DNA from: an uncultured Bacteroidota bacterium
Lineage (GTDB): Bacteria; Bacteroidota; Bacteroidia; Flavobacteriales; Flavobacteriaceae
Direction of reading: 5' to 3'
Length of the DNA stretch: 38,608 nt
Assembly: GCA_902514615.1 (NCBI GenBank)
Contig: CABXRG010000008.1
Span: forward strand, 1-38,608
Below are positions 2,866 through 29,467 of this stretch, one piece after another. The translations under genes and the position numbers were made by a program. How positions within the stretch are numbered: position 1 is the first letter of the stretch; the number at the start of each line of letters is the position of its first letter. The notes under the pieces were generated by a model. That model made no database searches and had not been told where the DNA came from. It worked only from the letters and a program-made list of their open reading frames with translations.

Positions 2866-4722
2866 ATGGCAAGTACATCAAATTATACTGAGGAAAATAT
2901 TAAATCACTTGATTGGAGAGAACATATAAGGTTAAGACCTGGTATGTATATCGGTAAGTCTGGTGATGGCTCATCCCCTGATGATGGTATATATGTATTG
3001 CTTAAAGAGGTTATCGATAATTGTGTAGATGAGTTTGTTATGGGTGAGGGAAAAGTTATTGATATTATTATAAATGATGACTTTGTTTCGGTAAGAGATT
3101 TTGGTAGAGGTATACCTATCGGTAAAGTTGTAGATGTTGTTTCTAAGATGAATACAGGAGGTAAGTATGATACTAGAGCATTTAAAAAATCAGTCGGTTT
3201 AAATGGTGTTGGAACTAAGGCAGTAAATGCCCTTTCCTCTTCATTTATAGTTTCTTCTACTAGAGAAGGCAAGACTAAATCAGCAAATTTTGAACTAGGA
3301 ATTTTAACCAATGAGGATTTAAATTCTAGTGAGGAGAAAAATGGAACATATGTTGAGTTTAAGCCAGATCAAACGATTTTTAAAAATTATAAATACAGAT
3401 TGGAATATGTAGAAAAGATGATTAAATTCTATGTATATCTAAATCCAGGTTTAACAATTAAACTTAATGGAAACAAGTTTAAATCTGACTTCGGACTTAA
3501 AGATTTAATAGAGGATCAATCTAATGTTCAGGATTTCTTATACCCTATAATTCATCTTAAAGGTGATGATATTGAAGTAGCTATTACACACTCAAGAACT
3601 CAATATAGTGAAGAGTATTATTCATTTGTAAATGGCCAATATACGGTTCAAGGAGGGACTCATCAAACTGCATTTAGAGAAGCTTTTGTTAAAACCATTA
3701 GAGAGTTTTTTGGTAAAAATTATGAAACTTCAGATATAAGAAAATCGATTATATCTGCAGTAAGTATTAAGGTTATGGAGCCTGTTTTTGAATCTCAAAC
3801 AAAAACTAAACTTGGATCTACTGAAATGGGTAAGGGCTTAAAATCAGTTAGAGTTTTTATAAATGATTTCGTAAAAGAGAAGCTTGACAATTATTTACAT
3901 AAAAACTCTGAAATTGCAAAATCAATCCAGAATAAAATTATTCAAGCAGAAAGAGAGAGGAAAGAATTATCCGGTATTAGAAAATTAGCTCGTGACAGAG
4001 CAAAAAAAGCAAGCCTTCACAATAAGAAATTAAGGGATTGTAGGGTTCATCTAAACGAATTGAAAAAGGATAACAGACTTGAATCTACAATATTTATTAC
4101 TGAGGGTGACTCAGCTAGTGGTTCAATAACTAAATCAAGAGATGTTAATACTCAGGCTGTTTTTAGCCTAAGAGGAAAACCCTTAAATTCTTTTGGTATG
4201 ACTAAAAAAATAGTTTACGAAAATGAAGAATTTAATTTACTTCAGGCTGCACTAAATATTGAAAATAGCATGGAGGATCTTAGATATAATAACATTGTTA
4301 TAGCTACTGATGCTGATGTAGATGGAATGCATATTAGATTACTAATTATAACTTTCTTTTTACAATTCTATCCAGAACTATTAAAGAATGGGCATTTATA
4401 TATATTACAGACTCCTATATTTAGAGTAAGAAATAAAGATAAAACTCATTATTGTTACAGCGAGGCTGAAAAAAATAAAATCATGAACTCATCAAAGAGT
4501 AAGTGGGAAATCACTAGATTTAAAGGATTAGGTGAAATTTCGCCAAATGAGTTTAAAAATTTTATAGGTGATGATATCAGATTAGATCCCGTTATTATAG
4601 ACACCTCAACAACAGTTGAAGAGCTCTTGAAATTTTACATGGGTAAAAACACTCCTGATAGACAACAGTTTATTATAGATAATTTAAAAGTTGAATTAGA
4701 TATTATAAATGAAAATGATTGA
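2866..4722 (+). CDS. parE: DNA topoisomerase IV subunit B
   Basis: A 618-residue ATPase subunit of topoisomerase IV, which decatenates daughter chromosomes. GHKL ATPase motifs are visible: [10 protein letters not shown] (48-57, catalytic Glu and Mg-binding Asn), DFGRGIP (78-84) and [14 protein letters not shown] (111-124). The TOPRIM domain has TEGDSASGS near 412 and DADVDG near 482. The N-terminus [17 protein letters not shown] plus [11 protein letters not shown] is the flavobacterial ParE form rather than GyrB. The pairing with an overlapping parC confirms topoisomerase IV rather than gyrase. The leader ATATTTATATAAATG has no Shine-Dalgarno sequence, as is usual in this phylum. Confidence 0.95.
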
Positions 4723-18551: not shown

Positions 18552-18980
18552 ATGAAAAACCTACACTTATACATATCCTTACTATTTGTTTTAACCTGTG
18601 CAAAAGAGGACTCACAGGATCCAAATAATGCACCTTCTCAAATAACAAGGCAATATACTCTAAGTGTGTCTTCTGGCGATGGGGGAAGTGTTTCAGGTGG
18701 AGGAACATTTGCAGAAGGAACTCAGGTAAGTTTAACTGCTACTCCAAGCTCAGGATATAGCTTTAGTGAATGGTCTAATGGATCAACAACAAATCCACTT
18801 ACAGTTACTTTAAACTCAAATACAAGCATTACTGGTAATTTTGTAATAATCATAAACAGTTTCACGCTAACAGTAACTGCAGGAGAAGGAGGATCAGTAA
18901 GTGGAGGAGGGGAGTATGATGAAGGAACAGAGGTTACAATAACAGCTACACCAGACGAAGGATATGAGTTCACGGGATGG
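18552..18980 (+). repeat. Paralogous segment A (inverted relative to 22091-22522)
   Basis: This 5' part of the lipoprotein gene (signal peptide and both InlB-type repeats) is closely similar in DNA to the minus-strand segment 22522-22091, with long shared runs and only scattered differences; the downstream propeller parts are much less alike. It marks a gene duplication now in inverted orientation about 4 kb apart. Similarity judged by eye, not by computed alignment. Confidence 0.7.
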
Positions 18981-20276
18981 TCTGATGGTGAATTGAATAT
19001 TACAAATACATTTAATATTAATTCTAACATTAACATCACAGCAGATTTTGAAATAATTACCGTAGATCCTATACCTCAAATTATTTATTCAACATCTGTC
19101 CAAAATCATGAATGGAATGATGGTTGGTATTCAAGAGAAAGAGAATCTTATCCTGTTGAATTCTTTTCTGCCTTTGAGTATTTTGATTATGATTTAGATG
19201 GTGATTTAGACATATTTTGCAGAGTTGGATTTTACCCTGGTCAAGGAGATTCAAATGCAGCTAATACAAACAATGATATTAGGATTCTAATAAATAATAA
19301 TAATACTTGGACATTAGCAGATAGAGATATTTTAGATTTTCAACCTAACCGAGCATATAGAAAAATAGTTGCTGTTGATATTGATAACGATGGGGATTTA
19401 GATATGATTGGATTTAATGCAGAGGACCCGGCTCCTTATAATGGAAACAGAACAATGGGTGGATTAGATTTATTTAGATTTAATGATGGTAATTTTTATT
19501 TTGAAGAAATTATACCTTATCAAGAAGGAAATCCTACATTTTTCCATTCAGGTTCAGCAGCTGATGTAAATAACGATGGGTGGATTGATTTAATTGCAGG
19601 AACAGGTAAAATGATTTTAAACAATGGAGATGGTACTTTTCAAAATTCCTCATATGATTTAGTACAAGGTGATAGTGGTGGTATGGATTGGTATTCTCAA
19701 TCAGCTATAGATTTAAATAATGATGGTTATACTGATATAATTGCAGGAAAATCACATGACAGTGGTGAGTGGTTTTTTCCTATGGGTGGAACAGAAGAAT
19801 TATATGGTAAAACTCAATGGGTATATTGGGGTAAGGCAGAATATCCATATTTTGATATGGATAATCCATTAATTCTACCAACTAATTATGATTTTTTTGG
19901 AACAGATGATTTAATTTCAAAAGGATTAGCATCAACAATGGATATTTCTATTGTAGATTTTGATAAAGATAACTTACTTGATATTTTTGTTTTATCACAT
20001 TCACCAATAAATCCTCCTTATGGAGATGGTAGTAGTTCACAATTAAATGTTATAGAATATTATAAAAATAATGGTGATAATACATTTACAAACGAAACTT
20101 GGAATATATTTGGAACTGATGGTGAAAATGAATTACCTAATTCAGGGACAAATTATTGGAAAGTTAGAGATATTGATAATGATGGTGATTTAGAAATACT
20201 ATTAGAAGTAGAAGAATATCCATTTACACATTTTAAGAAAGGAAGTACAGGAAAATATTATAAAACAATAGACTAA
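18552..20276 (+). CDS. Surface lipoprotein: two InlB-type repeats plus FG-GAP/VCBS propeller (paralog 1)
   Basis: A 574-residue lipoprotein (signal peptide 1-15, Cys16 in VLTC, followed by AKED). The Lys-acidic residues after Cys fit the flavobacterial lipoprotein export signal, so it is probably on the cell surface. Two divergent InlB B-repeats cover about 34-97 and 103-167 (GGSVSGGGTFAEGTQVSLTA; GYEFTGW). The rest is a propeller with six Ca-binding DxDxDG-type motifs: DYDLDGDLD (212), DIDNDGDLD (276), DVNNDGWID (338), DLNNDGYTD (387), DFDKDNLLD (469, degenerate) and DIDNDGDLE (540). Such proteins bind glycans or proteins; the ligand is unknown. No T9SS C-terminal domain is seen. Its stop overlaps that of the convergent 41-residue gene. 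Confidence 0.9.
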   Translation: MKNLHLYISLLFVLTCAKEDSQDPNNAPSQITRQYTLSVSSGDGGSVSGGGTFAEGTQVSLTATPSSGYSFSEWSNGSTTNPLTVTLNSNTSITGNFVIIINSFTLTVTAGEGGSVSGGGEYDEGTEVTITATPDEGYEFTGWSDGELNITNTFNINSNINITADFEIITVDPIPQIIYSTSVQNHEWNDGWYSRERESYPVEFFSAFEYFDYDLDGDLDIFCRVGFYPGQGDSNAANTNNDIRILINNNNTWTLADRDILDFQPNRAYRKIVAVDIDNDGDLDMIGFNAEDPAPYNGNRTMGGLDLFRFNDGNFYFEEIIPYQEGNPTFFHSGSAADVNNDGWIDLIAGTGKMILNNGDGTFQNSSYDLVQGDSGGMDWYSQSAIDLNNDGYTDIIAGKSHDSGEWFFPMGGTEELYGKTQWVYWGKAEYPYFDMDNPLILPTNYDFFGTDDLISKGLASTMDISIVDFDKDNLLDIFVLSHSPINPPYGDGSSSQLNVIEYYKNNGDNTFTNETWNIFGTDGENELPNSGTNYWKVRDIDNDGDLEILLEVEEYPFTHFKKGSTGKYYKTID

Positions 20277-20398
20277 TAATCTCTATTTTCAAAGTCTTCA
20301 TTTTCTTCCTTAATTATCTTTCTAATAAGCAAATAAATTAATGAAGCTATTATGATAAGCCAAATCGCTATACTAAAAATCATTTCTGAATCATTCAT
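20273..20398 (-). CDS. 41-residue single-span membrane protein downstream of ybjQ
   Basis: A short frame of 41 codons plus TAG. The product begins MNDSEMIFSIAIWL, has one membrane segment (about 7-25, rich in Ile, Leu, Ala) followed by RKIIKEENEDFENRD, a basic then acidic cytoplasmic-type tail. The ATG begins on the base immediately after the ybjQ stop codon (zero gap), the arrangement expected of a real cotranscribed gene, and the frame fills the whole space to the lipoprotein stop, which it overlaps by 4 bases. Function unknown. No family recognised. Coding status rests on context, length of hydrophobic segment and exact fit. Confidence 0.65.
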   Translation of the reverse strand: MNDSEMIFSIAIWLIIIASLIYLLIRKIIKEENEDFENRDY

Positions 20399-20713
20399 TT
20401 AGTCAAGTTTTACAGCAGTTCCATATGCCATTATTTCAGAACATCCTTGCATAATCATTGAAGTTGTTATTCTTACATTAATTACAGCATCAGCTCCCAA
20501 AGATTCTGCATTATCAATCATTCTACTTATTGCTTGCTCTCTTGATTGAGCTTGAAGTCTAGTATACTCACTTATTTCACCACCAACAACATTTTTAAGA
20601 CCTGCCCATATATCTCTTGCAACATTTCTTGCTCTTACTGTATTTCCTCTAGCTATTCCGATAGTATTTGTTATGTTTTTTCCTTGAACGTAGGGTGTAG
20701 TAGTTATAATCAT
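20399..20713 (-). CDS. ybjQ: YbjQ/UPF0145 family protein
   Basis: A 104-residue protein of the YbjQ family (UPF0145, formerly DUF74, also called heavy-metal-binding domain). The family pattern is full length: MIITTTPYVQGKNI, GIARGNTVRARNVARDI, the helical EYTRLQAQSREQAISRMI and the closing LGADAVINVRI with MAYGTAVKL. Members form pentameric rings; the in vivo role is not settled. It is followed at zero distance by a 41-residue membrane protein gene, which suggests that the two act together at the membrane. An inverted repeat (20731-20756) lies just upstream. It sits between two inverted lipoprotein paralogs. Confidence 0.93.
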   Translation of the reverse strand: MIITTTPYVQGKNITNTIGIARGNTVRARNVARDIWAGLKNVVGGEISEYTRLQAQSREQAISRMIDNAESLGADAVINVRITTSMIMQGCSEIMAYGTAVKLD

Positions 20714-20730
20714 ACTCTAATATACGAACT

Positions 20731-20756
20731 TATGTAAACATATTCTGTTTTACATA
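20731..20756. promoter_or_regulatory. Inverted repeat between lipoprotein paralog 2 and ybjQ
   Basis: TATGTAAA and TTTACATA form a perfect 8-base inverted repeat separated by 10 bases. It lies 18 bases upstream of the ybjQ start and 24 bases after the stop of the lipoprotein gene on the same strand. There is no T-run after it on either strand, so it looks more like a protein-binding site than an intrinsic terminator. The decamer TGTAAACATA within it also occurs at 7595-7604 next to the XRE gene. Confidence 0.4.
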
Positions 20757-20779
20757 ATATTAATTATAGGACATTTATA

Positions 20780-22522
20780 TTAATTAACCTTTATAAGCTG
20801 ACTTGATATAATTTCCCATTCCAAGTAGTTGTTTTGATCACTATAAGGGTTTGAGGTATTATATAATTCAAGAATCCCATCATTATCGATATCTTTAATC
20901 TTTGTAAATTTTATCCAATTCTCATTACCAGAATATACATCAATAAAGCTTGATGTAGCATCTCTAAAGTATTCACCATCAAGTTTAAGAATTTGTATAG
21001 ACCAATCTCTGTAAAAATTAGTTTGATCCCAGGGCAATCCTGGTTCTTCATTCATATTATCTCCAGTTCTAGTAATTATAATTTCAACCTGCCCATCATT
21101 ATCAAAATCAAAAAACTCAAAATTAGTAACGATACCCTGTTTATCAATACCTGAAGCAGGAAGTCTCTGAAATTCGTTATTCATATAATCAATTCCATCT
21201 CCATAAATAATAACCGGTGCATTATCATAAGTATTACACTCCCAATACTCACATTCTGGATTCTGATTAAAAGACCAGTCATGTCCACCTGCAATTAAAT
21301 CAATGTAACCATCATTGTTGATATCAAAAAGTTCAGCATTATACATTTGATTCATGAGAGTTTGATCGATAAGAGTTTCATTTGGCACAAGCTGTCCATT
21401 CAAATTTTTATATATAAGTGATTTTCCTCGCCCAGCATCAACTACTACTATATCTAGGTCACCGTCATTATCGATGTCTCCTGAAGCACCACCATGATAA
21501 AATGATTCAAAAGATTGATAGTCAACATCAGAAAAACTCCCATCTCCATTACTCATTAATGCCTTGTTGAACTCTCCATTAAATGGTTGCTTATCATACC
21601 CATGACCAAGAAGAAAAAGATCTACATAGTCGTCATTATTAAAGTCCCCCAAGAGAATCTTTCTTCCATGAACTAATCCAAGAAATTTACTATCATTTAA
21701 TTCATCAACTTCAAAATTACCTCCACAACCACCTTTGTAAAATCTTATTAGTTGTTTTCTTTCATATCCATAATAGTCACTAGGATAATCAACAAAATTT
21801 GAATAATCGTTATAGGAACCTATTATATCCATATAACCATCATTATTATAGTCTACACTTATAACATTAAGACCATATTCTCCAGATTCACCTCCCCATT
21901 GGTTGTTTAATAGTGAGCCTAAATCCTGATAATTTTGTGGGTAGTATATGTCAAAAAGTTTATAAGATGTCTGACTCCAATCTGGAATATCTGTTTGCCA
22001 ATAACCACAATCAATTTGAAAATTTGCACTTATTGTAACATTTGAGCTTATGGTCAATGTAATATTTGAACTTGTTGACTCTGATCCAATCCATCCAACA
22101 AATTCATATCCTTCTTCAGGTGTTGCAGTTATTGTTACCTCTGTGCCTTCTTCATACTCTCCACCCTCACTTGACACACTCCCCCCTTCTCCTACAGATA
22201 CTGTTAGTGTGTAACTGTTTATTATAATCTGGAAGTTAGCTGTAATGGTTGTATTTGAGTTTAATGTAACTGTAAGAGGATTAGATGTTGATCCAGTAGA
22301 CCATCCACTAAAGCTATATCCTGAAGTTGGTGTTGCCGTTAAACTTACCTGGGTTCCACTTGCAAATGTTCCTCCACCACTAACTGATCCACCATCTCCA
22401 GCAGTAGCTGTTAAAGTATATTGCTTTGCAATATCAGATGGGGGTGTGTTTGGATTCTGTGAGTCCTCCTTAGCACAGGTTAATAGTAATACTAGGGATA
22501 TGTATAGAGGTAGTTTTTTCAT
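20780..22522 (-). CDS. Surface lipoprotein: two InlB-type repeats plus FG-GAP/VCBS propeller (paralog 2)
   Basis: A 580-residue lipoprotein, close paralog of the one at 18552. Signal peptide 1-15, Cys16 in LLTC followed by AKED (surface-export-like). InlB B-repeats cover about 34-97 and 103-169 (GGSVSGGGTFASGTQVSLTA; EEGYEFVGW). Propeller Ca motifs: DYNNDGYMD (224), DFNNDDYVD (293), DIDNDGDLD (349), DINNDGYID (400), DFDNDGQVE (472) and DIDNDGILE (544). Extra cysteine pairs (172/266; 424/429) may form disulfides. The start shares one base with the stop of the upstream 657-residue lipoprotein gene (TAATG), so the two are translationally coupled. The binding partner is unknown. Confidence 0.9.
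   Translation of the reverse strand: MKKLPLYISLVLLLTCAKEDSQNPNTPPSDIAKQYTLTATAGDGGSVSGGGTFASGTQVSLTATPTSGYSFSGWSTGSTSNPLTVTLNSNTTITANFQIIINSYTLTVSVGEGGSVSSEGGEYEEGTEVTITATPEEGYEFVGWIGSESTSSNITLTISSNVTISANFQIDCGYWQTDIPDWSQTSYKLFDIYYPQNYQDLGSLLNNQWGGESGEYGLNVISVDYNNDGYMDIIGSYNDYSNFVDYPSDYYGYERKQLIRFYKGGCGGNFEVDELNDSKFLGLVHGRKILLGDFNNDDYVDLFLLGHGYDKQPFNGEFNKALMSNGDGSFSDVDYQSFESFYHGGASGDIDNDGDLDIVVVDAGRGKSLIYKNLNGQLVPNETLIDQTLMNQMYNAELFDINNDGYIDLIAGGHDWSFNQNPECEYWECNTYDNAPVIIYGDGIDYMNNEFQRLPASGIDKQGIVTNFEFFDFDNDGQVEIIITRTGDNMNEEPGLPWDQTNFYRDWSIQILKLDGEYFRDATSSFIDVYSGNENWIKFTKIKDIDNDGILELYNTSNPYSDQNNYLEWEIISSQLIKVN
22091..22522 (-). repeat. Paralogous segment B (inverted relative to 18552-18980)
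   Basis: Second copy of the duplicated signal-peptide plus InlB-repeat coding segment, on the opposite strand. The sequence around the first repeat (GGAACATTTGCA, AGTTTAAC, TCAGGATATAGCTTTAGTG) is shared base for base with segment A. The pair encloses the propeller regions, ybjQ and the 41-residue gene. By-eye comparison. Confidence 0.7.
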
Positions 22523-24495
22523 TAATATGTTGTCTTAACAAACTTGGAACCATTCCACTCCCAAATATGTTGAACCTTATGACTAACTAAGCTATTAAAA
22601 ATATTTAGAGTCCCATCTCCCTCGTAGTCCTCAACTCGAGTATGAATAAACCAACCTGTCTCTGGGTTACTACAGAATAAATTTGGGGTATTATAATTAT
22701 TACTTTCAATCAATTGATCAGAAAAATCTATAATATTTCTTTCTAAATCTAATTTATTAATTTGTATATAGTGGCCACCGTAAAAATTCGAAGTTCCAAT
22801 ATTATCGTTCATATCTGATGATTCTATTGGAAAAGAATCAATATCACCGCCTGTTCTAGAGACAATTATCTCATTTACTCCATCTCCATCTAAATCGACT
22901 ACATCAAAGTCAGTTGATGTTCCAAAATTTCTAACAATTGGTATTAAAGATTTTCTGTTCTCACTAAATTTGGAATCTTCATCACCCCAATAAATTTTCC
23001 CTCTACCACAATTGCCATCAGCATTATCTTGACACCAATCATAATAATAATCCCATTCATGACCCATAACCAAAAGATCGATATTACCATCCTTATCAAC
23101 ATCTATTAGTTCAGATTGATAAGTAGACCTCCAGTACCAAAAATTATCACCATTTTCAGGTTGAAATCTATCAGCCCATATAGGAAAATTAAAAGCACCT
23201 TGATTCTCAAAAAACTTGCTTGTAAACCCATTTTGCGGAGAGTTATCCCTACTTCCTTTTGAAAAAATATCTAGATCCCCATCGTTATCAATATCTGCAG
23301 AAGAAGCCTCATGTGCGCCGTTAGCTAATTCATGAACTCTATAGCCAAGAGTTCCATCAATACTATAATTATTAATGATAAAACCATTGAATTCTCCAGT
23401 ATAAGGCGGTATGTCAAGACCTAGATTAGCTGAATAAAAATCAGGATCTCCATCATTATCATAGTCACCAACAATAATCTTTCTGGCTAAATGTACTTTA
23501 GGTGGATCAATACCACCCCAATTAATCTCTGTAAAAACATATGATCCGTTTTCATAAAGATATAGTTCATATTCTACTTGAATAAGAGTAAAAGAATTAG
23601 GAGCTTGATATGTTGGGTGGATAAAAATATCATCATAACCATCATTATTTATATCCGCATATGCTACTCCATCTAGTTCATCAAAAGAGTTTCCATTTTG
23701 ATTAAACCCTTCGTAAATGCCATTACAGTAGTCTTCATAACGATTATCTCTTTGATTTAAATATCTAACTAAATTAACATCGGCTTTATTCCTTGTAGCA
23801 AATAGATCATGAGATGACTTTAAATAATCTTTATATATAGGTTCTGGTTGAGTTCTAACTTGATAATTTGACAACACAGATAGATTATCAACACCTGTGA
23901 AATTTATCCCTATATTATCAGTTCCTGCAATTGTAGTTGTCCAATCGACATTTTCAACAGTGTTTACAGTATACTCTATTATAATATTTCCTTCTGTATC
24001 TCCCTCGTTTGGCTCAGAGATTACACTTACATTTCCATACAATGCAGATAAAGAAGTTGTTTTATATCCTCCAGCATGAGAAAACCCAATTGAAAGTGTA
24101 TCCCCCACTCCTTTTGTAAACATTTTTGATGGTATTTCTGGAAGTGTAAATTGAGGAACTAGTCCAAATAAAGCTTCTATTGTTGTATTTGCAGTTAGAG
24201 TAACTGAAATTGTAGAACTAGAAGAATCAGATCCGTTCCATCCAATAAAACCATATCCTTCGTTAGGTGTAGCTGTTATGCTTACCTGTGTTCCATCATT
24301 ATAAGTACCACCAGCTGTCGAGACAATTCCACCCTCTCCAGCTGATACAGTTATTGTATACTGAGTAACTGTCGTTGAAGGAGTATTTGTTGTATTTGAC
24401 GGAGGTGCAACATAAACTGACGAGGTATCTTCTGTACTATCCTTAGCACAGGTTAAAACAAATAATAATGATAGGTATAAGTGTAGTTTTTTCAC
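22522..24495 (-). CDS. Surface lipoprotein: one InlB-type repeat, Ig-like linker and FG-GAP/VCBS propeller (paralog 3)
   Basis: A 657-residue lipoprotein starting with GTG (24493-24495). The signal peptide is nearly identical to paralog 1 (MKKLHLYLSLLFVLTC, Cys16, then AKDS). A Thr/Ser/Pro-rich linker (20-45) leads to one InlB B-repeat (46-110), then a beta-rich region (about 115-210) that looks like an Ig-type domain. The propeller has DINNDGYDD (281), DYDNDGDPD (344), DIDNDGDLD (401), DVDKDGNID (465), DLDGDGVNE (534) and DYEGDGTLN (623, weak). It heads a two-gene unit with paralog 2 (1-base overlap) and is divergent, by 47 bases, from the kelch/transmembrane protein. Ligand unknown. Confidence 0.9.
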   Translation of the reverse strand: MKKLHLYLSLLFVLTCAKDSTEDTSSVYVAPPSNTTNTPSTTVTQYTITVSAGEGGIVSTAGGTYNDGTQVSITATPNEGYGFIGWNGSDSSSSTISVTLTANTTIEALFGLVPQFTLPEIPSKMFTKGVGDTLSIGFSHAGGYKTTSLSALYGNVSVISEPNEGDTEGNIIIEYTVNTVENVDWTTTIAGTDNIGINFTGVDNLSVLSNYQVRTQPEPIYKDYLKSSHDLFATRNKADVNLVRYLNQRDNRYEDYCNGIYEGFNQNGNSFDELDGVAYADINNDGYDDIFIHPTYQAPNSFTLIQVEYELYLYENGSYVFTEINWGGIDPPKVHLARKIIVGDYDNDGDPDFYSANLGLDIPPYTGEFNGFIINNYSIDGTLGYRVHELANGAHEASSADIDNDGDLDIFSKGSRDNSPQNGFTSKFFENQGAFNFPIWADRFQPENGDNFWYWRSTYQSELIDVDKDGNIDLLVMGHEWDYYYDWCQDNADGNCGRGKIYWGDEDSKFSENRKSLIPIVRNFGTSTDFDVVDLDGDGVNEIIVSRTGGDIDSFPIESSDMNDNIGTSNFYGGHYIQINKLDLERNIIDFSDQLIESNNYNTPNLFCSNPETGWFIHTRVEDYEGDGTLNIFNSLVSHKVQHIWEWNGSKFVKTTY

Positions 24496-24507
24496 GTTTA
24501 AATTTAC

Positions 24508-24515
24508 TAAATTTG
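24508..24515 (+). promoter_or_regulatory. Candidate -7 element (TAAATTTG) of kelch/transmembrane protein gene
   Basis: TAAATTTG fits TAnnTTTG and lies 27 bases before the ATG at 24543, in the 47-base gap to the divergent lipoprotein operon. On the minus strand the same gap carries TAAATTTA (24499-24506), 3 bases from the GTG of the lipoprotein gene. Both promoters must be packed into, or extend beyond, this gap, so binding here could affect both. Confidence 0.4.
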
Positions 24516-24542
24516 AATGCTATATAAAATAGTTGCATTATT

Positions 24543-25859
24543 ATGATACTATTATTTCAGACCTTACTATTAATCTTTATTCCCTTTCAAGACCTCAATG
24601 AATATATTTATTACATTGATGATTCACAGCTAATAAAAAGAAATATTATTTCAGAAGAAATTGAGGTCATAGATTTCAATAATCCAGATATGATAAATCT
24701 GAATGACTATGAATTAATGGTTAAGGAAAGTGGTATTTTCTTCATAAGTAATAATAGCGGTATAGTATATAAAATTAAGGATAACTTTTTAACAAGGATT
24801 GATAAATCTCTAGATAATAGACTTTTATCAGACTCTTATATCTTCACACACAATGATACGATATTTAGGTATGGAGGATATGGCTTTTGGTCTCAGAGAA
24901 ATTTTATAATATATTTTGATGAAGATTTCAAAGAATGGGAGTTTTACCCCTCTAATACTGATTCCTATTCACCAGAAGGAAGCTATAAAGGGATTTATTT
25001 TAAAAGTGATAATGAGGTGTATTTTATTGGTGGGCAGTCTATTGATAAAAAGAATAAACTTAAAAGTAAAAACAGTAATGAAGTTATTAAATATGACTTC
25101 AACACTAAAATCTTTGAAAATCTAGGAAATCTTAACTTTCATTTTAATTACGAATCATTAATAGTAAAAGATGATTCAGGGTTTGCTATTAACAGTGGAA
25201 CTCAAATAGCATATGTCAAGCCCAAAGAAAACTTAGTTCAATTTTATAATAAAACACCTCAACAGTTTAATATTTTACAATACCCTAGAATACAAAATCA
25301 AAATAAGTATTATAATGATAATTATTTAATTCAAGTTTTTAGAAATTCAAACAAAACCAGTGAGAAAGTTATCTTGGCAAAGTCAAGTTTTTATAAAAAC
25401 AAATCATCAGAAATAAGACTATACACCAATAAGCCTGATTATTCATTTAATTTAAGTACTCTTATGATAATATTATTTCTGCTTAGTATTGGCATTTACG
25501 CTATTGACAAAATAAGATTCAATAATATATTATTAAATTCTAAAGGAATTATTTATAGAAGAATTCTAAATAATCTAACCCTTAAAGAAATAGATTTTAT
25601 GAAGGAAATTATGAAGCAAGAATATGTCACAACTAAAACAGTTTTAAAAATTGTAGAAAACACAAATCTTTCTTATCCACACAATATTAAAATTAAAGAT
25701 CAATTTATAAAAGAGCTAAATCTTAAGCTTAAAACTATATTTAATACCGACTATAGACCCCTAGAGGTTAGAAGCTCAAGTATTGATGCAAGGATTAAAG
25801 AATACTACTTCAATGAAAACTTTAAAAAGATTATTAATAGATTATCAGTTAAAGTTTGA
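24543..25859 (+). CDS. Kelch-like extracytoplasmic domain, one membrane span, cytoplasmic C-terminal domain (putative transmembrane regulator)
   Basis: A 438-residue protein of unrecognised function. Residues 1-15 form a signal peptide. About 18-300 is beta-rich with kelch-like repeats: FRYGGYGFWSQRN (108-120), YFIGGQSIDKKN (160-171) and alternating Tyr/Asp strands. A membrane segment covers about 304-322 (LSTLMIILFLLSIGIYAI). The remaining 116 residues are cytoplasmic, basic and helical: LTLKEIDFMKEIM, VTTKTVLKIVENT, IKIKDQFIKELNLKLKTIF and SSIDARIKEYYFN, an order resembling a winged-helix or response-regulator-type DNA-binding domain. I infer an outside-sensing, inside-acting regulator. It is divergent from the paralog 3/2 lipoprotein operon by 47 bases. 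The DNA-binding role is unproven. Confidence 0.7.
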   Translation: MILLFQTLLLIFIPFQDLNEYIYYIDDSQLIKRNIISEEIEVIDFNNPDMINLNDYELMVKESGIFFISNNSGIVYKIKDNFLTRIDKSLDNRLLSDSYIFTHNDTIFRYGGYGFWSQRNFIIYFDEDFKEWEFYPSNTDSYSPEGSYKGIYFKSDNEVYFIGGQSIDKKNKLKSKNSNEVIKYDFNTKIFENLGNLNFHFNYESLIVKDDSGFAINSGTQIAYVKPKENLVQFYNKTPQQFNILQYPRIQNQNKYYNDNYLIQVFRNSNKTSEKVILAKSSFYKNKSSEIRLYTNKPDYSFNLSTLMIILFLLSIGIYAIDKIRFNNILLNSKGIIYRRILNNLTLKEIDFMKEIMKQEYVTTKTVLKIVENTNLSYPHNIKIKDQFIKELNLKLKTIFNTDYRPLEVRSSSIDARIKEYYFNENFKKIINRLSVKV

Positions 25860-25873
25860 TATCTAAAAACCTT

Positions 25874-26323
25874 TTAATCACCTGTAGCTTTAAAGACTGC
25901 TGTAACTTCTATATCTGAATCTAATTTAAAAGTTATTGGATTTGATGTCCAACCACTAGACCACTCATGAAATTCAAATCCCTCAGCTGGTGTAGCACTA
26001 ATAGTTACTTCTGTTCCAGCTAATATTTCTCTTTCAATCATTCCTTTCCCCAATACATAGGTCTTTCCCTTCTTGTTCTTCTCCTGGTATTCTAAACTCA
26101 CCCATCCTGCTGGATTAAAACCATATCCGGGGTGATTATTTGCTTGAGGATCGTGTGAATACGAACCAGGAACGTAAGTCGTAGCATTTAAACGAGTTCT
26201 ATCAACTAATAAATTATAGCTGACTTCAGGGTCAAAATTAAACGAATAATTTGATTCTGGTAATTCTCCCTTAGTACAGCTAAGTATAAATAGAAAAGAA
26301 AAAAATAGTAGGATTTCTTTCAT
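25874..26323 (-). CDS. Small lipoprotein with one InlB-type repeat
   Basis: A 149-residue lipoprotein: signal peptide 1-15, Cys16 in ILSC, followed by TKGELPE, which partly fits the surface-export signal. Residues 20-85 are not recognised (NHPGYGFNPAGWVSLEY is the clearest segment). About 86-146 is a single divergent InlB B-repeat with LAGTEVTISATPAEGFEFHEW-type sequence, here split as AGTEVTISATP and EGFEFHEWSSG. No propeller. It is convergent with the kelch/transmembrane gene (14-base gap) and preceded by the palindrome TAAATTTA (26327-26334) as in two neighbouring lipoprotein genes. It may be a reduced member of the same family. Role unknown. Confidence 0.82.
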   Translation of the reverse strand: MKEILLFFSFLFILSCTKGELPESNYSFNFDPEVSYNLLVDRTRLNATTYVPGSYSHDPQANNHPGYGFNPAGWVSLEYQEKNKKGKTYVLGKGMIEREILAGTEVTISATPAEGFEFHEWSSGWTSNPITFKLDSDIEVTAVFKATGD

Positions 26324-26358
26324 ATATAAATTTATTAAAAATTTAAAATAAAAAAAAA

Positions 26359-26817
26359 CTAGGCATTGTACACATCAAATTGATATAGATGATATGATGT
26401 ATGAAAGTAGACAACCTTTTTAAATGCTTGGTTAGGAACTATTCCATGAAAATTATTAAGCAAGTATTTCTTATTTATAGATTCAACTTCTTTTAAGTCG
26501 CTAATCAATTTATTTTTTTCAAATTCAAAATCTAGATTTTCATATCGGTAAGTATTAAAAACCTTAAGTGTTGGTAAATTCTTTATATAATTTTTTACAT
26601 TATATCTCACTATGTACTTAAGATAGAGTCTATGAAATATACCAAAAACAAATCCTACAATAAAGATTAAGGGGTTAAGTTTTGTCTTGTTTAAATATAC
26701 GTCGATAAAGGCAGAACAGTGTTTAAGCATCATTGAAGAATTCATTCTTCCCCATTTAGGATCAGTATCCTTATCTAACAAATGAATTGAATTAATTAAT
26801 TTAGAATAGTCCATCAT
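26359..26817 (-). CDS. DUF1569 / DinB-like protein
   Basis: A 152-residue helical protein. WGRMNSSMMLKHCSAFIDVYL (22-42; the key residues are W22, N26, M30 and H33) and the C-terminal HTSYHLYQF give three histidines, H33, H139 and H143, in the spacing of the DinB metal-binding four-helix fold; the family is DUF1569. Enzymatic role unknown (relatives use thiols or bind metal). A hydrophobic stretch lies at 50-61. It is the last gene of the minus-strand run and shares one base with the stop of the E1 gene (TGATG); an alternative start is the next codon, also ATG. A 9-base T-run follows the stop, without a convincing hairpin. Confidence 0.8.
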   Translation of the reverse strand: MMDYSKLINSIHLLDKDTDPKWGRMNSSMMLKHCSAFIDVYLNKTKLNPLIFIVGFVFGIFHRLYLKYIVRYNVKNYIKNLPTLKVFNTYRYENLDFEFEKNKLISDLKEVESINKKYLLNNFHGIVPNQAFKKVVYFHTSYHLYQFDVYNA

Positions 26818-28796
26818 CAGTAGTTAAGTAGATAGTCTAACTTGTCTTTTAACTTATAGCTTGCTTGAAACCCTTCTTCCAGATTTTTAGCAAAAGGTAC
26901 TGGAGTATCTAAAGATCCAACTCTAACAATAGGGGCATCTAGATATTCAAATATTTCCTCACTAATTACTGCAGAAATCTCTCCAATATAACTACTAAAA
27001 AGAGTATCTTCTCCTAAAAGTAATACTTTACCTGTTTTCTTTATTGAATTGAAAACTAAATCCTTATCCCAGGGAATTAAAGTATTTAGATCAATTATTT
27101 CTAACTCTTGTTTTGGATACTCTTTTAATAGATCTAGTGCCCAATGAACACCTAATCCATAAGTCACAATAGTAACCTTTGTGCCAATATTTCTAATTTT
27201 ACCTTTACCTAATTCTAAAGTGTATCTAGATGATGGAATTTCTTCTGAGACTGTTCTGTATAAAAACTTGTGCTCAAAGAACATAACTGGATTAGGATCA
27301 TCTATAGACGCATTTAATAAACCCTTTGCTTCATATGGATGGGATGGATATACTACTTTTAATCCAGGGACTTTTGTAAACCATACTTCGTTAGTCTGAG
27401 AATGGAATGGACCAGCCCCTACTCCACCTCCACAAGGCATTCGCACAACGATATCTGAATTTTGAGACCATCTATAATTTGATTTTGCTATTAAGTTTAC
27501 CACAGCTGTAAAACCAGAACTTACAAAGTCAGCAAATTGCATCTCTACAATTGATTTGTAACCACCAACACTTAATCCATATGCAGAAGAAAGTATAACT
27601 GATTCACATAGAGGAGTATTGAAAACTCTATTCTTACCATATTTCTCATAAAGACCATCCGTAACCTTAAATACACCACCGTATCCCGCAATATCCTGAC
27701 CCATAACTACAAGATTATGATGCTTTTCCATAGATTCAAAAATACCCTCCCTTATTGAATCTACTAACCTAAACTCTTTTAGAGTCTTATTATCAATGTC
27801 TGTGCTTTCGTAATTAAAATCCTTATACACATCTCCAAGTTCTCTATCTACATCAAAATCAACTTCAGCATATTCATTGGCAGAACTCCAATTTTTATCA
27901 ATTTCACTTGAAATTTTTCCTTTTATCTCTACTAAATCTTTTTTTGAAATAATTTTTGAAGTCAATAAGAATTCTTCAAAATGAGAAATTGGATCTTTTT
28001 TTGACCATTCTTCAATAACCTTATTGTCAATATAAGCCTGGCCACTAGCCTCTTCATGACCCTTCATTCTAAAAGTTTTAAATTCAATTAAAGCAGGCTT
28101 AGAATCTTTTCTCATCTTATTAGTAACCAAGTCAATGCATTTATAAACATCCACAATATTGTTTCCATCTATTATATGAGAATCCATGTTGTATGAAGCC
28201 CCACGGTCTGCTAGGTTTTCAATTGCATATTGTTCATTAACAGGAGTACTCAAACCGTAACCGTTATTCTCAATACAAAAAATAACTGGGAGATTCCAAG
28301 TTGAAGCTAAATTCAAAGCTTCATGAAAATCTCCTTGACTAGTACCACCATCACCTGTAAAAACAGCCGTTACCTGATTGTTATTGTTTAATTTATTAGA
28401 TAATGCTACTCCACAGGCTACCCCCATTTGAGGGCCTAAATGTGAAATCATTCCTATTATTTTGTGCTCATTAGATCCAAAATGAAAACTTCTATCTCTT
28501 CCTTTAGTGAACCCCTCATTTTTTCCTTGCCACTGAGCAAATAACCTATCAAGCGGAATATCTCTAGAGGTAAAAACACCTAAATTTCTATGCATAGGAA
28601 GAATATACTCTTCCTTTTTTAAAGCTTGTGTAACACCTGCTGAAATAGCTTCTTGTCCGATACCACTAAACCATTTTGAAACCTTTCCCTGCCTTAATAG
28701 AATGATCATTTTATCTTCAATCATTCTAGATTTGAGCATATTTCTATACAATTGTATTAGAACATCTTGATCTATTCCTGTTACATCATACTTCAT
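26817..28796 (-). CDS. 2-oxoacid dehydrogenase E1, fused alpha and beta subunits
   Basis: A 659-residue thiamine-diphosphate enzyme. Residues about 5-330 are E1 alpha, with the TPP/Mg motif GDGGTSQGDFHEALNLAS beginning at 148 and ending at IENN (175-178). Residues about 340-659 are E1 beta (RLVDSIREGI, QDIAGYGGVFKVTDGL, GGGVGAGPFHSQTNE, GLKVVYPSHPYEA). The fusion is common in Bacteroidota, mostly labelled branched-chain 2-oxoacid (2-oxoisovalerate) dehydrogenase; the substrate is not certain, and no E2/E3 gene is nearby. The ATG at 28796 gives a 4-base ATGA overlap with ung; a TTG three codons upstream is possible but less likely. Confidence 0.92.
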   Translation of the reverse strand: MKYDVTGIDQDVLIQLYRNMLKSRMIEDKMIILLRQGKVSKWFSGIGQEAISAGVTQALKKEEYILPMHRNLGVFTSRDIPLDRLFAQWQGKNEGFTKGRDRSFHFGSNEHKIIGMISHLGPQMGVACGVALSNKLNNNNQVTAVFTGDGGTSQGDFHEALNLASTWNLPVIFCIENNGYGLSTPVNEQYAIENLADRGASYNMDSHIIDGNNIVDVYKCIDLVTNKMRKDSKPALIEFKTFRMKGHEEASGQAYIDNKVIEEWSKKDPISHFEEFLLTSKIISKKDLVEIKGKISSEIDKNWSSANEYAEVDFDVDRELGDVYKDFNYESTDIDNKTLKEFRLVDSIREGIFESMEKHHNLVVMGQDIAGYGGVFKVTDGLYEKYGKNRVFNTPLCESVILSSAYGLSVGGYKSIVEMQFADFVSSGFTAVVNLIAKSNYRWSQNSDIVVRMPCGGGVGAGPFHSQTNEVWFTKVPGLKVVYPSHPYEAKGLLNASIDDPNPVMFFEHKFLYRTVSEEIPSSRYTLELGKGKIRNIGTKVTIVTYGLGVHWALDLLKEYPKQELEIIDLNTLIPWDKDLVFNSIKKTGKVLLLGEDTLFSSYIGEISAVISEEIFEYLDAPIVRVGSLDTPVPFAKNLEEGFQASYKLKDKLDYLLNY

Positions 28797-29467
28797 AGTG
28801 ACCAATCAATTTTATTTTTTCCAATAGATTCCATATAATTATTAGTCTCACTAAAATGTTTATTTCCAAACCAATAACCTCTATTAGCGCTTAACGGTGA
28901 TGGATGACCTGATTCTAGTATTTTATGTTTACTGGTATCTATCAATTTTCTTTTTTGCTTAGCAAATGATCCCCATAATAAAAATACAGTATTATTTGTT
29001 TCCTTTGATATGATTTCAATAACCTTGTTAGTAAATATCTCCCAACCCTTGTTCTGGTGACTACCAGCTAACCCTTCTTTAACCGTTAAAGTGGCATTTA
29101 AGAGCATAACTCCTTGTTTAGCCCACTTAGATAAATCACCATGTTTTTCTCTGAATTTGAGACCTAAGTCAGCTTCGACCTCCTTAAAAATATTAATAAG
29201 TGATGGTGGGTGTGTAATTCCTTTATTAACAGAAAAGCAAAGTCCGTTAGCTTGATTAGCTCCATGATATGGATCTTGACCTATAATAACGACTTTTAAA
29301 TTATCTACTGTACATGAGTTAAAAGCATTAAAAATCTGTGAGCCCTTCGGATAGCAAATAGAAGAAGAATATTCATCCTTCACAAAAGATATGAGATCAT
29401 TAAAATATTCTGAATTAAATTCTTTGGCTAGAAGTCTCTCCCAAGATTCATCAATTTTTATTGACAT
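28793..29467 (-). CDS. ung: Uracil-DNA glycosylase
   Basis: A 224-residue family 1 uracil-DNA glycosylase that removes uracil from DNA at the start of base excision repair. The catalytic GQDPYHG motif (63-69, Asp65), GLCFSV (75-80), LLNATLTV and the DNA-intercalating HPSPLSANRG loop are all present, and the length is standard. The start overlaps the symporter gene end by 17 bases and the stop overlaps the E1 start by 4, so the gene is tightly embedded in the run. No sign of damage or transfer. Confidence 0.97.
   Translation of the reverse strand: MSIKIDESWERLLAKEFNSEYFNDLISFVKDEYSSSICYPKGSQIFNAFNSCTVDNLKVVIIGQDPYHGANQANGLCFSVNKGITHPPSLINIFKEVEADLGLKFREKHGDLSKWAKQGVMLLNATLTVKEGLAGSHQNKGWEIFTNKVIEIISKETNNTVFLLWGSFAKQKRKLIDTSKHKILESGHPSPLSANRGYWFGNKHFSETNNYMESIGKNKIDWSL

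Follow-up and report, generated by a model that had tools for sequence, protein, structure and literature searches.

In the 38,608-nucleotide stretch of DNA analysed here (the window), from an uncultured member of the Flavobacteriaceae, a gene for a putative membrane protein lies among lipoprotein genes carrying InlB repeats. This arrangement raises the question of whether the protein senses a cue outside the cytoplasm and controls its neighbours, as a first-pass annotation of the sequence had proposed.

Domain layout and predicted fold

The open reading frame at 24543-25859 (+) encodes a protein of 438 amino acids. The first-pass annotation had the length right, but its start at 24496 counted in the 47-bp intergenic gap. 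The features of the locus are as follows, with their basis in brackets.

18552..20276 (+): further InlB-repeat and FG-GAP lipoprotein of the cluster (Pfam)
20780..22522 (-): second InlB-repeat and FG-GAP lipoprotein, its start overlapping the previous stop by one base (Pfam)
22522..24495 (-): InlB-repeat and FG-GAP lipoprotein, head-to-head partner and proposed target (Pfam)
24496..24542 (no strand): divergent intergenic gap, 47 bp (sequence)
24508..24515 (+): TAAATTTG, fitting TAnnTTTG, the Bacteroidota -7 promoter element (sequence)
24528..24553 (no strand): candidate operator, the 26-bp palindrome AATAGTTGCATTATTATGATACTATT, which extends over the start codon (palindromic EM model, cross-validation)
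24543..25859 (+): kelch, transmembrane and winged-helix regulator, 438 aa (sequence, family alignment, AF2 model)
24543..24593 (+): N-terminal signal-peptide-like segment, residues 1-17 (hydropathy; AF2 helix 2-11)
24603..25418 (+): kelch beta-propeller, residues 21-292, predicted periplasmic sensor (kelch models and predicted structure)
25440..25520 (+): single membrane helix, residues 300-326, hydrophobic core 303-321 (hydropathy and AF2)
25527..25856 (+): predicted cytoplasmic OmpR-type winged-helix domain, residues 329-438 (profile search, predicted structure)
25874..26323 (-): small lipoprotein with a partial InlB repeat, tail-to-tail (Pfam)

The 438-residue protein matches no Pfam or NCBIfam model at cut-off, and its kelch region gives a weak Pfam match (Kelch_6, E 0.005). 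Hydropathy places a single internal membrane segment after the N-terminal hydrophobic stretch, and the C-terminal domain of 117 residues carries a net charge of +10. The full-length AF2 model (pLDDT 92.4) has strands over residues 21-292, a helix at 300-326 and a winged helix thereafter. Its propeller matches kelch domains at E values of about 1e-9, with KLHDC2 and KEAP1 among the matches. No receiver domain was found by Pfam search or in the full-length model. Hydropathy, profiles and predicted structure thus bear out the signal-peptide-like segment, kelch region, single membrane segment and basic C-terminal domain that had been read from the sequence.

The C-terminal domain was predicted by AF2 from a 77-row alignment at pLDDT 93.2. 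Its elements follow the order b-b-b-H-H-H-b-b, as in OmpR-type domains, with a third helix of 23 residues and a two-strand wing last. In VIA-align the top match was the DNA-binding domain of CadC (Z 8.9 over 92 residues, 3.2 Å), followed by RitR (Z 8.4), ToxR on DNA (Z 8.3), and then CovR, CosR and AdeR; Z scores of 8-9 are near the level reachable by unrelated models. Foldseek alone returned weak matches (best E 0.012), to MarR-, BlaI-, SarA- and OmpR-type winged helices. Searched against PDB sequences, the family profile found AdcR (E 6e-4) and, at E 7.5e-4, 2k4j, a putative transcriptional regulator. Pfam gave scattered weak winged-helix matches on 77 C-terminal domains, Trans_reg_C not being among the 25 families listed. 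The structure prediction and fold search that the first-pass annotation had suggested as a check on the cytoplasmic domain therefore yielded a winged helix, in favour of the DNA-binding reading: the confidently predicted OmpR-type fold, closest to the DNA-binding domains of CadC and ToxR, suggests a domain able to bind DNA.

We consider it very improbable that the winged helix instead binds protein, for example in an envelope-assembly scaffold whose kelch domain holds surface cargo. Kelch domains typically bind proteins or peptides, the matches to KLHDC2 and KEAP1 are in keeping with such a role, and winged helices are able to mediate protein contacts. Against this, the domain is basic, its best matches are DNA-binding OmpR-type domains, and a conserved palindrome is found at the family's start codons (see below).

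An undescribed family and its neighbours

Scanning genome contigs with the single protein gave no relative, and a profile scan was required. The latter found 80 loci, all but one labelled Bacteroidota and most of them Flavobacteriaceae. Of 299 genomes from the window's family, 22 contained relatives in a single-sequence search, a few matches among these being weak. More than 100 homologues are known to us from these searches, all but one from records labelled Bacteroidota, and 105 distinct family ORFs, fragments among them, were gathered. Presence is patchy: in wider draws the regulator occurs in 29/397 genomes of the window's family and 44/396 of its order, and within the window's genus in one genome of three. 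The window's own genome (1.03 Mb, 81% complete) has Flavobacteriaceae-like relatives in searches. No Pfam or NCBIfam family matched the homologues as a whole, and a literature search found no description of such kelch/winged-helix membrane proteins; the homologues are an undescribed Bacteroidota family.

The architecture is shared across this family. In all 23 first-aligned members hydropathy shows one membrane helix, and their C-terminal domains, 101-125 residues long, are basic with one exception; a kelch model is matched by 73 of 75 aligned members at E 0.01 or better (best 5e-13). Conserved motifs are RIDxS and GGYGFW, together with a tail of the form S-Y/H-x-x-N...LN...DKRxKxY. Outside kelch fusions the winged-helix profile was not clearly found, short remnants apart. 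In an exopolysaccharide-type locus, two short winged-helix-only ORFs (L095:2258-2608 and 3492-3827) lie beside a full-length member and are possibly soluble versions or remnants.

The layout described for the window was confirmed. The regulator gene is head-to-head, across 47 bases, with two coupled lipoprotein genes that both encode InlB and FG-GAP repeats and share one base, the nearer beginning with GTG at 24495, and the tail-to-tail lipoprotein at 25874-26323 (-) carries a partial InlB repeat. Of the five ORFs with InlB repeats in this small genome, four lie grouped round the regulator (18552-26323); the fifth encodes an 890-aa protein on another contig (G000 contig C17:72-2744). A literature search found no account of InlB/FG-GAP lipoproteins of this kind.

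Tabulating neighbours across the relatives, another check suggested at the outset, showed that the InlB association recurs (in L089 and twice in G666) in several separate lineages. Family genes show head-to-head placement roughly twice as frequently as other genes do (neighbour within 300 bp, 31/56 non-redundant homologues versus 120/451 other genes of the same loci, p 3.6e-5). InlB-repeat lipoproteins adjoin them in the window, in L089, in L067/L070 and at three of four G666 copies. Head-to-head InlB pairs occur at four loci with gaps of 46-60 bp (window 47, L089 56, G666 60 and 46); the partners in L089 and G666 are InlB/FG-GAP or InlB/DUF285 lipoproteins, the two in G666 having the same InlB and FG-GAP make-up as the window partner.

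InlB-linked members are nevertheless a minority, and more relatives sit in exopolysaccharide loci. WecA-, UpxY-, Wza- and Wzz-like genes recur beside the family and are commoner than InlB genes: by Pfam identities, a WecA-like transferase is present in 16/95 loci and a NusG/UpxY-like gene in 14/95. A frequent order has the WecA-like gene diverging from the regulator, which is followed by UpxY with a 4-bp overlap. The exopolysaccharide neighbour label needs 10 changes on the tree. Six of the 17 family-search genomes have a PF00953 gene no more than 4 kb away, with only one to three such genes per genome. InlB adjacency as a family-wide rule was accordingly rejected.

Several individual loci illustrate these surroundings. 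The regulator's end overlaps a NusG/UpxY-like gene by 4 bp in L096, L098, L100, L104, L106 and L111, and in L098 and L111 a WecA-like transferase is head-to-head on the other side, forming a compact exopolysaccharide control cassette. Elsewhere, in several genomes, family genes have nearby a ParB-N plus DNA methylase gene, a helix-turn-helix-like gene of 60-70 aa (MERRLSKKDLMELYGVDR...), or both (L190:11021-15149, L191:7471-12518, L089:1375-2739, L120, L126 and L058), in what looks like a mobile or hypervariable spot.

Such patterns bear on a second explanation, in which a membrane-bound winged-helix regulator acts on itself or on distant genes only and the InlB lipoproteins are accidental neighbours in variable islands. 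The patchy presence of the regulator (the 29/397 genomes above), the varying number of InlB genes between genomes and the position of the L089 and G666 pairs beside a ParB-methylase gene, often with a small helix-turn-helix gene, are consistent with it. So is the sister species G187, whose syntenic locus keeps the InlB lipoproteins, with flanks mostly 73-90% identical, and lacks the regulator. However, the head-to-head order is repeated at the four loci with their short gaps, and the InlB-adjacency label requires 5 changes on the tree, of which at least four separate gains or losses are forced by the starred branches; the link is seen in at least 4 lineages. Moreover, an InlB gene adjoins three of the four copies in G666, a genome with only about nine such genes among some 2,000 (on a rough count, fewer than 0.1 of four copies would be adjacent by chance). 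We therefore regard accidental neighbourhood as unlikely.

In the sister-species sequence L158, lipoprotein genes compared with window positions 25874-28805 are 23-51% identical over the aligned parts. As the lipoproteins have diverged this strongly while the flanks are mostly 73-90% identical, the InlB cluster appears to evolve fast. The sister-species locus in L158 also has an extra MscL-like gene.

A palindrome at the start of family genes

Upstream alignments first drew attention to a block common to diverged subclades. A palindromic EM search of 64 start regions returned the 26-bp AATAnTTGCATTATAATGCAAnTATT with a log-likelihood ratio of 200. The 12 sets of other gene starts used as controls, half of which consisted of signal-peptide-like genes, gave ratios of 41-66. 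Single k-mers near family starts were suggestive only and a generic test for palindrome excess was not significant; it was the palindromic model that settled the matter. About a third of diverse members carry AATAnTTGCATTATAATGCAAnTATT at or close to the start codon. Most copies lie at -12 or -15, over that codon, and others in non-coding DNA. Lutimonas saemankumensis and L. halocynthiae are cultured relatives that have this motif. The window copy, AATAGTTGCATTATTATGATACTATT, is the third best match to the model; it lies downstream of the TAAATTTG box and covers the ATG, 33-58 bp upstream of the divergent lipoprotein start.

Cross-validation used tree clades, single-linkage identity clusters being uninformative (one cluster held 51 of the 64). 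With one clade left out at a time, 23/64 held-out members scored above the 95th background percentile (p 2e-14), and the window palindrome scored 15.9 with its own clade held out. Scores of at least 10 were reached by 23/64 family starts, a count that includes training members, versus 5/520 other starts. Over 1.47 Mb scanned, 42 sites lay close to family starts, compared with 14 in other places; of these 14, several were at the starts of neighbouring envelope genes, a UpxY-like gene included. At up to 3 mismatches, the window's genome held no site beyond the single window copy, and a reversed-pattern control there gave 2+2 matches.

The palindrome is absent from about half of members and several clades, as well as from 26/26 distant held-out homologues in another family of the order. 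Given these distant homologues and several fresh loci without the motif, we do not claim it as a feature of the whole family. The InlB-paired members in G666 have weak or no matches to it, and the pairs there have another conserved block in common, seen by eye.

Conceivably, though with low probability, the palindrome is a feature of start regions, arising from signal-peptide codons or translation initiation, or is the site of another regulator. Its usual position overlaps the ATG together with codons such as ATGAAGCAACTATTT (MKQLF), and many members lack it. Yet control starts, signal-peptide-like in half of the sets, yield no such palindrome, the copies in L083, L067 and Lutibacter lie in non-coding DNA 50-95 bp upstream, and stray sites occur at starts of neighbouring envelope genes.

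Proposed mechanism and relation to known regulators

Taken together, the locus probably encodes a membrane-integrated one-component regulator, with a kelch sensor outside and a winged helix on DNA, that controls the adjoining lipoprotein genes. Its fold, topology and layout and the conserved palindrome are supported computationally; cue sensing and control of the neighbours are what we infer, strengthened by the palindrome at the gap. The periplasmic propeller would bind a cue arising in the envelope or at the surface, perhaps a glycan or peptide, and the single membrane helix would pass its state to the cytoplasmic OmpR-type winged helix, which as a dimer would bind the palindrome at 24528-24553. 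This site, immediately downstream of the likely -7 element, covers the start codon of the regulator itself, so the protein probably represses its own gene. With the same site only 33-58 bp upstream of where the divergent lipoprotein gene begins, control probably extends to that two-gene InlB/FG-GAP operon as well. Likewise we infer the ligand, the dimer state, binding to the palindrome and the sign of regulation.

In the ToxR-like family (ToxR, CadC, TcpP and PsaE), a sensor in the periplasm is joined through a single membrane helix to an OmpR-type winged helix in the cytoplasm (PMC5430869, PMC5936718), the DNA-binding domain being at the N-terminus (PMC5936718). In its predicted form, the kelch regulator shares with ToxR and CadC the periplasmic sensor, single membrane helix and OmpR-type winged helix, with no phosphoacceptor. 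Unlike them, it has an N-terminal sensor and a C-terminal DNA-binding domain, and is thus the reverse of the arrangement described for the ToxR family; unlike ToxR-like regulators, its sensor is a kelch domain and its hosts are Bacteroidota. It may work like ToxR and CadC yet fail one defining feature of the family, domain order.

In its predicted winged-helix fold, with N-terminal strands and a C-terminal wing, the output domain resembles those of OmpR/PhoB-type response regulators. Unlike these, the kelch regulator is membrane-tethered, lacks a receiver domain and has an inverted repeat as its candidate site, theirs being a tandem direct repeat. Kelch profile and fold matches link its sensor to kelch/galactose-oxidase-type propellers, but here kelch forms the part of a regulator that lies outside the cytoplasm. 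Bacteroidota membrane regulators with a C-terminal LuxR-type helix-turn-helix also place the sensor outside and the DNA-binding domain after the membrane segment; in contrast to the kelch regulator, they have other sensor domains and another DNA-binding fold.

Surface-lipoprotein and exopolysaccharide switching in marine Bacteroidota is poorly known. The family would provide a directly testable switch made of one gene, its sensor and DNA site being defined and its targets recurrent, and would show that an OmpR-type winged helix placed at the C-terminal end can be driven across the membrane. More speculatively, and with the balance tilted against it, these proteins could represent a general Bacteroidota class of 'inside-out ToxR' regulators, in which a periplasmic kelch propeller would recognise outgoing surface-lipoprotein or exopolysaccharide cargo and signal directly to DNA, each copy being paired with the adjacent surface genes and its operator evolving along with them.

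Finally, tandem GTGAGAAnTTGTGAGAA repeats with 10-11 bp spacing occur about 50 bp upstream of distant homologues in L146 and L157; direct repeats such as these are of the kind bound by OmpR-type domains.
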